Below are positions 18,641 to 62,884 of a stretch of 64,000 bases of DNA, in pieces; positions within the stretch are counted from its first letter, which is position 1, and each line of letters starts with the position of its first letter. The notes under the pieces were generated by a model. That model made no database searches. It was given only the letters and a program-made list of their open reading frames with translations, and was not told the DNA's origin. The stretch is from Halobaculum magnesiiphilum (GTDB lineage: Archaea > Halobacteriota > Halobacteria > Halobacteriales > Haloferacaceae). Location of the stretch: positions 1,302,001 through 1,366,000 of the forward strand of contig NZ_CP081958.1 in NCBI RefSeq assembly GCF_019823105.1. The letters are read 5' to 3'. The translations under genes and the position numbers were made by a program.

Positions 18641-19051
18641 GGGCGAAGCCCGAACGACCGTCTCGGCCACCGGCGGAGCGGTCTCGTGCCGCTCCGCCCA
18701 GAACATAGCGAGACGGGAGTAGCGAGGTCGAGCGAAGCGAGACCTCGTTGCGAACGGCGAACGGAGTGAGCCGTGAGCGGAGCAACGCAAGACCTCGTTG
18801 CGAACAGCGAGAAGACGAACCGGCGAAAGCGTCGGTGGCAGCGGATCGGGCGGTGGCAGCGGATCGGGCGGTGGCACGGCGTTCCGTTGGTTCGGCATGG
18901 AGGGCCGATCAGTCGGGAACCGATTTGTTCGGGGGCATTCAACCCTACTGGGGAGGCACGTATTACTTCACCGTCCGGTGATCTTCCCACTGTTCGGTCG
19001 GCAGTCCGGTAAGCGGAACAAACATGGGTCGGCCGTTCGTTCTTCCGGTGA
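18641..19051. repeat. Repeat-rich 411-base gap after moaB
   Basis: No convincing gene. It holds a 10+7+10 hairpin (18672-18698), a repeat copy (18723-18785, see separate entry), a second GACCTCGTTGCGAAC copy (18791-18805), two perfect 18-base tandem units (18834-18851, 18852-18869) plus seven bases of a third, and near the next gene a TATA-like TATTAC (18961) with a palindrome TCACCG-TC-CGGTGA (18968-18981). The half site TCCGGTGA recurs just before the ATG at 19052. Confidence 0.75.
18723..18785 (+). repeat. Dispersed 63-base repeat, copy 1
   Basis: Begins with a 7-11-7 hairpin (CGAGGTC ... GACCTCG, 18723-18747) and continues GTTGCGAACGGCGAACGGAG and TGAGCCGTGAGC. Closely matched by 61111-61172 and, on the minus strand, by part of 58551-58593. 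Short junk ORFs reading SLRSPFA-type peptides come from this repeat. Confidence 0.75.
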
Positions 19052-40135: not shown

Positions 40136-40187
40136 CCGCGGTGGCGCGTGCCGGCGGACCTCAGTGTCCGCCGGATGCGCGCGAGGG
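40136..40187 (+). repeat. Dispersed hairpin repeat, copy at 40 kb
   Basis: 52 bases matching 61042-61093 at 47 positions. The core is CCGGCGGAC-CTCAGT-GTCCGCCGG (40151-40174, 9+6+9), enlarged by an outer GCGCGT/GCGCGC stem. One stem pair (40156/40169) is G-C here and C-G in the other copy. Confidence 0.82.
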
Positions 40188-58593: not shown

Positions 58594-59668
58594 ATCGCCC
58601 GCCCTCGCCCCCCTCAACCGCCCCGGTCCCCGCGCGGTCGAACCCCTCCAGATCGATCCTCCCCTCCGGCATCGGAACGCCCTCGAACGGGTCCGCCCCG
58701 TCCGCGAGCAGCAGGCTGCCGTCCAGATCCGCGTAGTCGAGCAGCGGTCCGAGGTGACAGCCGGCGGCGATGGCGGCATTCGACTCGACCATGCAGCCGA
58801 GCATGACGTCGAGGCCGTGCGCGCGGGCGGCGTGGACCATCCGTTTCGCCTCCAGCAGGCCGCCGCACTTCATCAGCTTCAGGTTCGCGATGTCGCAGCG
58901 GTCGGCGATCCGTGGGATGTCCGCGAGCGTGACGCACGACTCGTCGGCGGCGATCGGGAGCACGGAGCGTTCGGAGGCGTCCTTCAGGCCCGCCGGGTTC
59001 TCCGCGGGGATGGGCTGTTCGATGAACTCGACGCCCAGATCGGCGAGCCACTCGCTCTTTCGGGCGGTCTCGCGCGGGGTCCACGCCTCGTTGGCGTCGA
59101 CGCGTAGCGTCGCCTCGGGCGCCTCCTCGCGCACCGCCTCGACGACCTCGCGGTCGCGGTCGGTGCCCAGTTTCAGCTTGAGGGTGGAGTACCCCGACTC
59201 GACGGCGGCGGCGGTCTTCTCGCGCATCACGTCGGTGTCGTCGATGCCGATCGTGTACGACGACGTAGGGGCGTCCGCGGGGTTCAGCCCCCACAGGCGA
59301 TACAGCGGGACGCCGAGGCGTTTCGCGGCCAGATCGTGCAGCGCGATGGAGACGCCACAGCGGGCGGCAGGGTTGTCGGCGACCACGGCCTCCATGCGCT
59401 CCTCGATCTCCGCGAGCGCGTGGGGGTCGCCGACGGTCTCGACCTCGGCGAGCAGATCCGGGAGCACGGCCACGACGGTGTCGGCCGTCTCGCCGTAGTG
59501 GCTCGACGGCGCGGCGGCGCCGACGCCGACCATCCCGCCCTCGTCCTCGATCCAGACGATCACGTTCTCGGCGGCGGTGGTGGTGCCCCGCGAGATGGTG
59601 AAGTCGTGTTCCAGCGGCAGGGAGACGCGCTCGAAGGACGCGGTAAGCGTCGACGAGGTGGCCGACAT
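58592..59668 (-). CDS. dgcA: Enolase-superfamily racemase/epimerase, DgcA-type
   Basis: A 358-residue muconate-lactonizing subgroup enzyme. Catalytic Lys lies in LKLKLG (K164/K166) and LKLMKCGG (K264/K267), with metal ligands Asp191 (RVDANEAW), Glu217 (FIEQP) and Asp242 (AADES). It would have been called dipeptide epimerase, but the neighbour DUF1611 gene matches the DgcN-DgcA pair in which DgcA racemises N-acetyl-D-glutamate. Start overlaps the dgcN stop by one base. Confidence 0.88.
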   Translation of the reverse strand: MSATSSTLTASFERVSLPLEHDFTISRGTTTAAENVIVWIEDEGGMVGVGAAAPSSHYGETADTVVAVLPDLLAEVETVGDPHALAEIEERMEAVVADNPAARCGVSIALHDLAAKRLGVPLYRLWGLNPADAPTSSYTIGIDDTDVMREKTAAAVESGYSTLKLKLGTDRDREVVEAVREEAPEATLRVDANEAWTPRETARKSEWLADLGVEFIEQPIPAENPAGLKDASERSVLPIAADESCVTLADIPRIADRCDIANLKLMKCGGLLEAKRMVHAARAHGLDVMLGCMVESNAAIAAGCHLGPLLDYADLDGSLLLADGADPFEGVPMPEGRIDLEGFDRAGTGAVEGGEGGR

Positions 59669-60690
59669 CAGCGGATCGCCTCCACGACCTCCTCGGCGCC
59701 GAAGCGGATCAGGTCCGTCGCGGGCGCGTCGATCCCGGCGGCGAACTCCTCGACGGCGGCCTCGGCGGCCGCGTCGTCGTCGAGGTCGGCGGTGTTGAGC
59801 GCGCCGGCGACGACCTCGGTCCCGTGGACGGGCGCCGCGAGCGACTCGTAGAGGTCGACGTACTCCGGCAGCGGCGGGAGGTCGAACGACTCGTAGCCGT
59901 GGATCGCCTCCCGGCCGGCGGCGTGGCACATGACGAGTTCGTCCGCCATCGCGCCGTGGAGGATGCCGCAGGTGACCGCCGAGTAGGCGGGGTGGACGAT
60001 GCTCCCCTGCCCCTCGACGACGAGCAGGTCGTGGTCGTCGCCCTTCTCCAGGATCATCTCCTCGACGGCGCCGGCGGTGAAGTCCGAGACGACGCGGTCG
60101 ACGGGGTTGCCCCAGCCCTCGATCATGATCCCCGTCTGGCCCGTCGGGATCACGCAGGCGTCGATGCCGACCTCCCTCGCGGCGTCGACGATCTCCATCG
60201 TCGCGGTCATCTTGCCGACCGAGCAGTCGGTGCCGACGGTGAGCACCACGTCGGCGTCGACCTCGTCCGATCGCCCCTCGGCGACGCCGATGTCGCGGTC
60301 CGGGCGCCGCACGTCCCACAGCTCGACGCCGTGTTCGGCCGCCAGCGCGGCGAGGTCGTCGTCGTCGTTCAGGAAGTAGTGGAGCCCCGAGACCACGTCG
60401 CAGCCGGCCTCGATGGCCGCCTCCACGTCCGGCCGCCACGACTCGTCGAAGCCGCCGCCGATCGGCGCGATCCCGATGACGAGCGCGTCCACGTCGTCGG
60501 GCACGTCCGCGAAGGACGCGACGACGGGCGCGTCGGCCACGCCGGGGAGGTGGTCGGCGACGCGCTCGCCGGGTCGGTCGCGGTCGAGGACGGCGGCGAC
60601 CTCGTAGTCGGCGTAGCGGATGATGCCGTTGGCGGTCTTCGAGCGGTCGGGGAACTTCCCGTGCGCGAGGACGGCGACGCGATCGTACAT
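59668..60690 (-). CDS. dgcN: DUF1611-family P-loop protein, DgcN-type N-acetyltransferase
   Basis: A 340-residue protein with an N-terminal Rossmann-like part (YDRVAVLAHGKFPDRSKTANG) and a P-loop GTDCSVGK (about 153-160) in the C-terminal DUF1611 domain. In marine bacteria and halophilic archaea this family works with DgcA in D-glutamate use, with DgcN adding the acetyl group. It is the first gene of the two-gene unit. The upstream 832 bases are repeat-rich. Confidence 0.87.
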   Translation of the reverse strand: MYDRVAVLAHGKFPDRSKTANGIIRYADYEVAAVLDRDRPGERVADHLPGVADAPVVASFADVPDDVDALVIGIAPIGGGFDESWRPDVEAAIEAGCDVVSGLHYFLNDDDDLAALAAEHGVELWDVRRPDRDIGVAEGRSDEVDADVVLTVGTDCSVGKMTATMEIVDAAREVGIDACVIPTGQTGIMIEGWGNPVDRVVSDFTAGAVEEMILEKGDDHDLLVVEGQGSIVHPAYSAVTCGILHGAMADELVMCHAAGREAIHGYESFDLPPLPEYVDLYESLAAPVHGTEVVAGALNTADLDDDAAAEAAVEEFAAGIDAPATDLIRFGAEEVVEAIR

Positions 60691-60814
60691 GTGCGGAGGT
60701 GCGTGAGCGTGGGTGATAAATCGGACTCACGCGGTCGGATCGGCCGGATACTTCGACTGTGAGATCGGTGTGTACAGGTGATCGACAGTTTCGACAGCGA
60801 CGACCGTGGTGTCC

Positions 60815-60861
60815 ACCGCGAAAGCCCCCGCGGCTTTCGACTCCCGCGACTCGCTGCGCGC
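60815..60861 (+). repeat. Left terminal inverted repeat
   Basis: ACCGCGAAAGCCCCC (60815-60829), 16 variable bases, then GCGACTCGCTGCGCGC (60846-60861). Inverted partner at 61346-61392 with 14/15 and 16/16 matches in the two blocks and the same 16-base spacer length. Confidence 0.85.
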
Positions 60862-60898
60862 GCTCGGTCGCTCCGCTCTCTCGCGTGCTTGCGTCGTC

Positions 60899-60948
60899 AT
60901 CAGAACGCGTAGCGTTCTGATTGGCTCACGAGAGCTCCGCTCTCGTGA
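60899..60948. repeat. Twin 23-base triloop palindromes
   Basis: ATCAGAACGC-GTA-GCGTTCTGAT (60899-60921) and TCACGAGAGC-TCC-GCTCTCGTGA (60926-60948), each with ten-base perfect arms and a three-base loop, four bases apart. Same architecture as the twin palindromes in trpE. Confidence 0.9.
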
Positions 60949-60972
60949 ACGTCGAGGTTCGTCGATAGCCGC

Positions 60973-60992
60973 GGCCCCTTTCAGTCCCGCCC
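60973..60992 (+). repeat. Inner inverted repeat, left arm
   Basis: GGCCCCTTTCAGTCCCGCCC, matched 19 of 20 in inverted orientation by 61264-61283. Confidence 0.85.
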
Positions 60993-61041
60993 GGCGGTCG
61001 GACGGGCCGAGCGATGGATCCCCTCGCTCGGTGTGCACGAA

Positions 61042-61093
61042 CCGCGGTGGCGCGCGCCGGCCGACCTCCGTGTCGGCCGGGTGCGCGCGAGGG
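61042..61093 (+). repeat. Dispersed hairpin repeat, copy at 61 kb
   Basis: 52 bases matching 40136-40187 at 47 positions. Core stem CCGGCCGAC-CTCCGT-GTCGGCCGG (61057-61080). The pair 61062/61075 is C-G; the same pair is G-C in the 40 kb copy. Confidence 0.82.
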
Positions 61094-61110
61094 GCGAGTG
61101 AGGAGCGGGA

Positions 61111-61172
61111 CGAGGTCGAACGGAGTGAGGCCTCGGTGCGAACGGCGAACATAGTGAGCCGTGAGCCGAGCG
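61111..61172 (+). repeat. Dispersed 63-base repeat, copy 2
   Basis: CGAGGTC-N11-GGCCTCG hairpin (61111-61135) followed by GTGCGAACGGCGAACATAGT and GAGCCGTGAGC. Same layout as 18723-18785, including an 11-base loop. Confidence 0.75.
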
Positions 61173-61221
61173 ACGAACGAGTCGGTTGGGGAGGCTCACG
61201 TGAACGGAGTGAACGTGAGTT

Positions 61222-61241
61222 CGTCGGAGCTTGCTCCGACG
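61222..61241. repeat. 20-base palindrome
   Basis: CGTCGGAGC-TT-GCTCCGACG with perfect nine-base arms, next to an imperfect palindrome CTCACGT-N11-ACGTGAG (about 61195-61219). The 40 kb copy of the surrounding element lacks both. Confidence 0.8.
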
Positions 61242-61263
61242 TAAGTGAGGCTGCGGTGCCGTC

Positions 61264-61283
61264 GGGTGGGACTGAAAGGGGCC
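61264..61283 (-). repeat. Inner inverted repeat, right arm
   Basis: GGGTGGGACTGAAAGGGGCC, the inverted partner of 60973-60992. Confidence 0.85.
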
Positions 61284-61345
61284 GGCGTGCTCGCGGAGCG
61301 AGACGACGCTAGCACTGCAAGGAGCGAACGGAGTGAGCGAGTGAA

Positions 61346-61392
61346 GCGCGCAGCGAGTCGCAGCCCGCGAGCACGCCGGGGGCTTTCGTGGT
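61346..61392 (-). repeat. Right terminal inverted repeat
   Basis: GCGCGCAGCGAGTCGC (61346-61361), 16 bases, then GGGGGCTTTCGTGGT (61378-61392). Partner of 60815-60861. Confidence 0.85.
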
Positions 61393-61522
61393 CGTGTTCT
61401 CCGTCGAAGCGACGACGACACCGCAACCAACGCCAGCGGAAACCCCTCCGAACGATCCGAATACAGGCACAGCCGGCCGATTTCACCGCCCCTTACCCGG
61501 CTCGCGAACCAGAGACCACGTA

Positions 61523-62884
61523 ATGAGCGACGGCATCCACCTCAACCTCTTCACGATGAACTCCGTGGAGCACGTCTCCCCCGGCTCCTGGCAACACCCG
61601 GCGGATCGCTCTGCCGAGTACACCGACAGGGAGTACTGGACCGACGTTGCTCGGACCGCCGAGCGCGGCGGCTTCGCCGCGGTGTTCTTCGCCGACGTGC
61701 GCGGCATCTACGACGTGTACGGCGGCGACCGCGAGACGGCCATCGAGCGCGCCGTCCAGACGCCCTCGAACGACCCCGGGTACCTCGTGCCCGCGATGGC
61801 GGAGGTGACCGACTCGCTCGGCTTCGCGGTCACGAAGTCGACGACCTACACGCACCCGTACCAGTTGGCGCGGGAGCTCTCCACGCTCGATCACCTCACC
61901 GACGGCCGGGTCGCGTTCAACGTCGTTACCTCCTACCTCGAATCGGCGGCGGCGAACCTCGGGCTCGACGAGCGCATGGACAAGGGGACCAGATACGACC
62001 GCGCCGACGAGTTCATGGACGTGTGCTACGCGCTGTGGGAAGAGTCGTGGGACGACGAAGCCGTCGTCCGCGACCGCGAGTCGGGCGTCTTCACCGACCC
62101 CGCGGGGGTTCACGAGATCGACCACGAGGGCGAGTTCTTCGACGTGCCCGGCCCCCACGGCTGCGAGCCGTCGCCCCAGCGCACGCCCGTGATCTTCCAG
62201 GCGGGCTCCTCCGACCGAGGACGCGACTTCGCCGCCGCCAACTCGGAGGCGGTGTTCTGCTCGCAGCCGACCGAGCGCGGCGTCCGCGAGTACATGGACG
62301 ACCTGCGCGAGCGGGCCGCCGCGCTCGGACGCGACCCCGACGAGCTGGCGTTCTTCCCGGGCGTCGTCCCCGTCGTCGCCGAGGCCGAGGAGGCGGCAGA
62401 GGCGAAGTACGAGCGCCTGCTGGAGACGGTCGACGTGGAGGCGACGCTCGCGCTGCTGTCGGGGTTCCTCGACATGGACCTCTCCGAGCTCGACCCGGAT
62501 CAGAAGATCGAACACATCGAGACCGACGCGATCCAGGGGACGATGAACGCGTTCACGAAGTCCGACCCCGACCGCGAGTGGACGGTCCGCGAGGTGGCGC
62601 AGTTCTCCGGGCTCGGGACCACCTCGCCGGTCGTCGTCGGCACCCCCGAGCAGGTGGCCGACGAACTGCAGTACTGGCACGAGGAGGTCGGCGTCGACGG
62701 CTTCAACGTGAAGGAGGTGCTGCGCACCGGGAGCCTCGACGACGTTGTCGACCTCCTCGTGCCCGAGTTGCGCGCACGCGACCTGCTCGCGGAGCCGACC
62801 CCCGGCGAGACCCTCCGGGAGCGACTGCTGGGCGACGGTCCCCGGCTGTCGGCGACCCACCCCGCGCGGCAGGAGCTAAAATGA
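61523..62884 (+). CDS. LLM-class flavin-dependent monooxygenase, NtaA/SnaA/DszA-type
   Basis: A 453-residue TIM-barrel flavoprotein that would oxidise a substrate using reduced FMN from a separate reductase. Family features are WTDVARTAERGGFAAVFFAD, NVVTSYLESAAANLG (FMN contacts) and VIFQAGSSDRGRDFAA. Start ATG 61523; the longer frame enters repeat DNA. The usual partner flavin reductase is not adjacent and the substrate is unknown. Confidence 0.9.
   Translation: MSDGIHLNLFTMNSVEHVSPGSWQHPADRSAEYTDREYWTDVARTAERGGFAAVFFADVRGIYDVYGGDRETAIERAVQTPSNDPGYLVPAMAEVTDSLGFAVTKSTTYTHPYQLARELSTLDHLTDGRVAFNVVTSYLESAAANLGLDERMDKGTRYDRADEFMDVCYALWEESWDDEAVVRDRESGVFTDPAGVHEIDHEGEFFDVPGPHGCEPSPQRTPVIFQAGSSDRGRDFAAANSEAVFCSQPTERGVREYMDDLRERAAALGRDPDELAFFPGVVPVVAEAEEAAEAKYERLLETVDVEATLALLSGFLDMDLSELDPDQKIEHIETDAIQGTMNAFTKSDPDREWTVREVAQFSGLGTTSPVVVGTPEQVADELQYWHEEVGVDGFNVKEVLRTGSLDDVVDLLVPELRARDLLAEPTPGETLRERLLGDGPRLSATHPARQELK

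Follow-up and report, generated by a model that had tools for sequence, protein, structure and literature searches.

An inverted pair of structured non-coding elements upstream of dgcN in Halobaculum magnesiiphilum, and their relationship to haloarchaeal IS6-like MITEs

The window analysed here (64,000 nucleotides of the Halobaculum magnesiiphilum genome, contig NZ_CP081958.1) contains, between dgcN and an LLM-type oxidoreductase gene, a gap occupied by inverted repeats. An earlier note on this DNA described outer and inner pairs of arms, and regarded them as MITE-like palindromes inserted successively, or as one large structured element. What does this island consist of, where else is it found, and how might it have come to lie upstream of a gene?

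Architecture of the dgcN-LLM gap

Sequence and alignment reveal that the gap holds two head-to-head (inverted) copies of a single non-coding element of ~124-173 nt (Table 1). The outer arms (60815-60861 and 61346-61392) are as described, matching at 77% over 47 nt, with two conserved blocks and a variable middle; the inner arms are also present, and extend to 60972-60997 and 61259-61284 at 92%. The two pairs are, however, not nested. Each outer arm together with its inner arm bounds one element, 60992-60820 (-) and 61264-61387 (+), and each element is one covarying hairpin rather than part of a large palindrome. Each copy thus begins (5′) at an inner arm and ends (3′) at an outer arm. The 16 variable bases of the outer arms belong for the most part to one side of a 13-bp hairpin stem, the sequence of which changes from copy to copy while pairing is kept. 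The idea of inserted palindromes survives to the extent that extra hairpins have been added inside the left core, an insert shared with copy L012 and the congener G063, but the arms themselves do not represent nested insertions.

The leader type of the left copy recurs on other copies in the same genome (e.g. L020, L021, L039 and L040). The long leader of the right copy is made up of modules B, C and D; module C is also dispersed alone in this genome (L031, L034, L041, L042, L044, L046 and L047), and the GGYTGGGGAGG of module D recurs 5′ of cores in other genera. Elsewhere in the window, islands at 18723-18787 and 40136-40187 match lone leader modules C and B, respectively, and no core was found with either.

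Table 1. Features of the dgcN-LLM gap and its flanks (positions in the window)
Feature	Position	Strand	Description and basis
dgcN	59668-60690	-	one flank of gap
Left core copy, inverted	60992-60820	-	sequence; CM match 58.5 bits; motifs common to other copies
Left core, GGG tracts	60992-60990, 60988-60986		
Left core, P0	60982-60978 / 60824-60820		
Left core, P1 arms	60974-60962, 60840-60828		
Two-hairpin insert	60898-60953	-	TTCACGAGAGC..GAACGCTACGCGTTCTGATGACG; interrupts left core
Left-copy leader	60993-61047	-	GCGGTTCGTGCACACC...CGTCCGACCGCCGGGC; one of several leader types 5′ of core
Right-copy leader, hairpin module B	61044-61107	+	GGCGCGCGCC..TCCGTG..GCGCGCGAGGGRYGAG; aligned to other loci
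Right-copy leader, hairpin module C	61108-61179	+	within leader
Right-copy leader, module D	61180-61263	+	AGTCGGTTGGGGAGG conserved at 61180-61194, two added hairpins, then GGCTGCGGTGCCGTC
Right core copy	61264-61387	+	sequence; alignment and covariation with other copies; CM match 81.7 bits
Right core, 5′ end	GAAAG 61274-61278, GGG 61279-61281		GGGtGGGACT, then GAAAG, then GGG
Right core, P1	61282-61294, 61367-61379		5′ arm CCGGCGTGCTCGC; interior; 3′ arm GCGAGCACGCCGG
Right core, 3′ end	GGG 61380-61382, CTTTC 61383-61387		GGG, then CTTTC
LLM-type oxidoreductase gene	61523-62884	+	other flank of gap

Fold and distribution of the core

Read 5′ to 3′, the core consists of GGG-Y-GGG-ACU, a 5-bp helix P0 (GAAAG/CUUUC), a GGG facing a second GGG, and P1, a 13-bp stem. 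Past P1 come a short GA-rich loop and P2, a helix containing a C.C mismatch, followed by internal loops that include GACGcAAGCAC and GCGCAGCGAG; the apical hairpin is variable. In an alignment of 25 sequences, two-sided changes are found in 22 of 32 pairs, RNAalifold and pair counting being in agreement. Pairing is retained in 97.6% of cells, many of which stem from related copies, versus 72% in shuffled and 33-45% in slid alignments, and none of 500 shuffles reached the observed value. Compensatory base changes of the kind that characterize structured non-coding RNA are, in other words, present. Among 224 elements P1 takes 189 different 12-nt sequences, its length being mostly fixed at 12-13 bp, and swapped controls are mismatched. 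P0 was invariant in the first alignment and covaries once other lineages are added (GGAAG/CTTCC, CAAAG/CTTTG and CGAAG/CTTCG; paired in 36 of 42). The mispairs in P1 favour G.U over A.C by 66:16 (p 2e-8), an excess which marks one strand (GGGACTG..CTTTC) as the working strand. Compensatory changes and this strand-specific tolerance of G.U establish, at the level of sequence, a long rod as the predicted fold of that strand. A guide function of P1, directed at a target close by, was rejected: the apparent excess of 12-mer matches was due mostly to imperfectly masked cores that matched themselves.

The motif GGG-N-GGG precedes ACT in 206 of 240 cores that were fetched without using that feature. 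The core has two GGG tracts at its 5′ end and another two opposite one another between P0 and P1, which points to a candidate quadruplex. Tracts 2-4 served in part as search features; tract 1 did not, yet is GGG in most cores. The haloarchaeal cytoplasm, with its molar KCl, is a natural setting for a conserved G-quadruplex.

A DNA search of the H. magnesiiphilum genome (3.73 Mb) gave 97 matches. The same genome has 32 exact occurrences of the inner-arm 14-mer GGGACTGAAAGGGG, versus 0 for the reversed control. The dispersed copies lie between genes, and the description of the repeats as non-coding, palindromic, present elsewhere and lacking a transposase gene holds in full. No autonomous version was seen among five further copies in this genome, whose half-stems lie ~100-160 nt apart, one copy being without its 3′ half. 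A covariance model (CM) built from 25 cores detects at least 37 cores in this genome, at least 37 in the sister genome (G294) and one or two in three congeners. Across the haloarchaeal class the same model, which has rough E-values and was trained on loci fetched from public genomes with a pattern fixing parts of the frame, finds the core in 82 of 97 genomes and 37 of 44 genera; up to 37 candidates were scored per genome, which makes the high counts lower bounds. One genus (g2) appeared to lack the element when searched with the exact 14-mer. This was false, since most g2 genomes have 35 or more copies by the CM; the cores that the 14-mer missed have CAAAG/CTTTG as P0. All titled matches in a pattern scan of public genomes were from haloarchaea, and the same-element pattern gave no matches in viral contigs. 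A CM search of Rfam 15 at permissive thresholds yielded no family match, three miRNA matches falling far below the cut-off, and among the full texts searched no relevant paper contained the core sequence.

Several variants were encountered among the copies. A second interior (CTAT..GTGCGGAGAG..ATAT..GCGACCGCGA) occupies the same GGGACTGAAAGGGG/P1/GGGGCTTTC frame in L054-L057, L059, L062, L118, L150 and L181. L055, L219 and L321 have tandem repeats of the core's 3′ tail, which comprises the 3′ arm of P1, GGGGCTTTC or GGGGCTTTG and ~45 nt. Head-to-head core pairs ~32 nt apart with a common semi-palindromic spacer (ACCYGTAGCYGGTTG..CAACCGGCTACGGGT) are found in L048, L049, L052 and L065, the source of which is presumably Haloarcula.

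IS6-like ends, promoter position and change at orthologous sites

In two metagenome-assembled lineages (G296/G297) the core lies within units of ~175-340 bp (~215 bp) that have GGTAGTGTTCAGATA at one end and its complement at the other. The two MAGs contain 162 and 128 occurrences of this TIR (control, 0), and 24 of 29 TIR-bounded units hold a core. An 8-bp TSD matching at 6 or more positions accompanies nine of the 29 units (three each at 8/8, 7/8 and 6/8) versus ~1% of swapped controls. An IS of the H. magnesiiphilum genome, present in three copies (L259-L261), has GGTAGTGTTCAGATA as its TIR, with 697 bp between the TIRs in two copies, a frame of ~211-219 aa encoding a transposase of family PF13610, and 8-bp TSDs (CCGGCAGC and TCCGACGG) at two copies. 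Since their ends match those of this archaeal IS6-like IS, the G296/G297 units are considered MITEs: they have a TIR in common with an autonomous IS and an 8-bp TSD, lack a transposase gene, measure under ~500 bp and occur in many dispersed copies. No PF13610 transposase was found in the two MITE-holding MAGs, which are fragmentary and incomplete.

The label MITE-like thus fits the same core within true MITEs (TIR and 8-bp TSD) of other haloarchaeal lineages, but not the window copies. The cores of the window genome carry no IS6-like TIR or TSD, the best TIR matches differing at 5-8 of 15 positions, and we therefore file the window copies not as MITEs but only as carriers of the MITE core. In other lineages both TIRs are present at only 14 of 151 cores.

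With gene starts taken from a simple codon model rather than annotation, a start codon follows 80-140 nt beyond the core 3′ end in 71 of 104 cases, and beyond the 5′ end in 14 of 71; for divergent gaps alone the counts are 25/39 versus 8/39. The two window cores lie 129 and 135 nt from their start codons. Because long leaders shift the 5′ measure, the TIR ends provide a cleaner test: the end facing a start codon is 43-57 nt away in 26 of 44, mostly 45-50, a peak that is missing where the ends face stop codons. About 18-22 nt outside the TIR the AT content reaches a maximum of 0.58 (versus ~0.33), and TATA-like strings begin 15-20 nt outside it in 11 of 65, with hardly any elsewhere. In tandem gene pairs the sense orientation predominates (65:32, p 0.001). 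Such placement fits targeting or selection against disrupted promoters alike, its sharp upper bound speaking for targeting; a literature search found no paper on archaeal IS targeting promoters. Among the autonomous IS6-like copies of this genome (G000; L252, L255 and L257-L261), which have two different TIRs, several seem by eye to follow a similar spacing, with an apparent TATA-like box ~18-20 nt beyond one of their ends.

The earlier note had tied mobility to recurrence of the arms at other loci and to variation of the gap in relatives, and both are found: dozens of further loci carry the element, and the dgcN-LLM gap varies. Six genomes of the genus, this one among them, have an occupied gap of ~590-830 bp; in three congeners it is ~140-275 bp and core-free, and in two more it holds larger, different inserts. 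Occupied and core-free gaps speak for mobility, but the surrounding intergenic DNA differs too; there is no clean insertion, and the gap shows no readable target duplication. A candidate empty site in the sister pair G000/G294 was rejected, the whole intergenic region being different.

Between G000 and G294 the interior of the dgcN gap is inverted, and in L068 the interior is flipped relative to the core arms. At orthologous sites of these two genomes, with flanks ~90-99% identical, about half of 23 core pairs have wholly different P1 stems, each of them paired. Cores reduced to little beyond the frame are seen in L292 and G063. Replacement of the whole core was observed at conserved sister-species sites (L015/L273, L010/L280 and L032/L287), with no donor among the fetched copies.

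Possible origins and comparison with known systems

We consider it probable, without being assured of it, that this is a class-wide structured cis element or RNA, and that IS6-like transposases have at least partly carried it to positions immediately 5′ of promoters. That nearly the whole class has it (82 of 97 genomes) would fit an old host element too, namely a cis-regulatory or insulator RNA family that is vertically inherited and only occasionally captured by MITEs. A core far better conserved than the ends, the sense bias in tandem pairs and the fixed distance to the next start codon are all congruent with such a family. Against it stand the copy number, which ranges from one or two to at least 37 within one genus, the empty orthologous sites and the units with TIR and TSD; we regard it as doubtful.

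A site acting as DNA, in which a single-strand hairpin or cruciform recombines by a logic like that of attC or IS200/IS605 ends, would account for interiors inverted relative to the arms (L068; the G294 versus G000 gap) and for cores replaced at about half of the orthologous sites between nearly identical flanks, and G.T is likewise tolerated in folded DNA. It is nevertheless improbable, as no recombinase is linked to the element, the conserved internal loops resemble those of an RNA, as do the alternating G-C/C-G changes, and an 8-bp TSD is not known as a feature of IS200/IS605. A PATE or REPIN of the IS200/IS605 type, which would have a conserved subterminal palindrome and no target duplication, does not match either: TIR-bounded copies have an 8-bp TSD, and the stem sequence is not conserved. 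Short CGAACGGAGTGAG-type repeats are frequent here, but an origin by chance or low complexity, as for palindromes common in the GC-rich intergenic DNA of haloarchaea, deserves almost no credence: the reversed-pattern control gave 0 or near 0, and the covariation controls already refute that reading.

Under the favoured reading of spread by IS6-like transposases, the window copies would have descended from IS6-like MITE insertions and then lost their ends; since these copies carry no such ends, this route is one that we infer. They may now change by inter-copy recombination, through interior inversion, internal deletion and core replacement. With less support, the core might have a cis effect immediately before the promoter, either at the transcript or at the DNA level. 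If the hairpin is capped by a four-tract G-quadruplex (GGG-Y-GGG plus GGG/GGG), transcription reading through from the gene upstream could be blocked. Such a block, if real, would make insertion there tolerable and favour the sense orientation. An insulator of this type would fit the sense bias and the promoter-upstream position, and is in our opinion rather unlikely. Also rather unlikely is the full scheme of a new class-wide element, RNA or DNA, whose hairpin carries a G-quadruplex cap and whose stem is fixed in length but free in sequence, and in which the IS6-like transposase targets the upstream edge of the core promoter (unit end ~48 nt before the start codon and 15-22 nt before the TATA box) and cores are swapped like cassettes at fixed sites.

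If the favoured reading is true, haloarchaea carry an abundant structured element outside Rfam that could be tested in strains kept in the laboratory. The positions also suggest that transposition in archaea may be directed at promoters; the targeting of the transposase would then be linked to the TBP/TFB complex, by a logic like that of the yeast Ty elements found upstream of Pol III genes.

Integron attC sites keep structure while sequence varies. The present element likewise keeps structure over sequence, but has long conserved sequence blocks, no cassette array and no linked integrase. Covarying helices and conserved internal loops are shared with the structured RNA families of Rfam; unlike these, it matches no Rfam 15 entry, and its copy number and MITE linkage are unusual. 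The MITEs, SMRs and PATEs of Haloquadratum walsbyi are also short, transposase-free, non-coding and present in tens of copies in a haloarchaeon (PMC3119063). In the part of that source drawn on here, no covarying fold or class-wide spread is described, and those repeats tend to insert into other mobile elements, whereas the present element lies upstream of genes (PMC3119063). The closest parallels are the archaeal IS6-like IS of the ISH14/ISH15/ISH29 group, the membership of which in the IS6 family is disputed (PMC6807381, PMC7986276), and their MITEs; MITEHarch3 of ISfinder is listed as an IS6-family MITE (PMC6807381). Elements of this group have the same length, ends beginning with GG, a G at position 7 and an 8-bp TSD (PMC6807381 Table 5; PMC7986276), as does the 697-bp IS of this genome. 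The MITE-sized units bearing its TIR in two MAGs resemble archaeal IS6-like MITEs; the window copies differ from the latter in having no TIR or TSD, and the cargo differs in being a strongly conserved, folded core.
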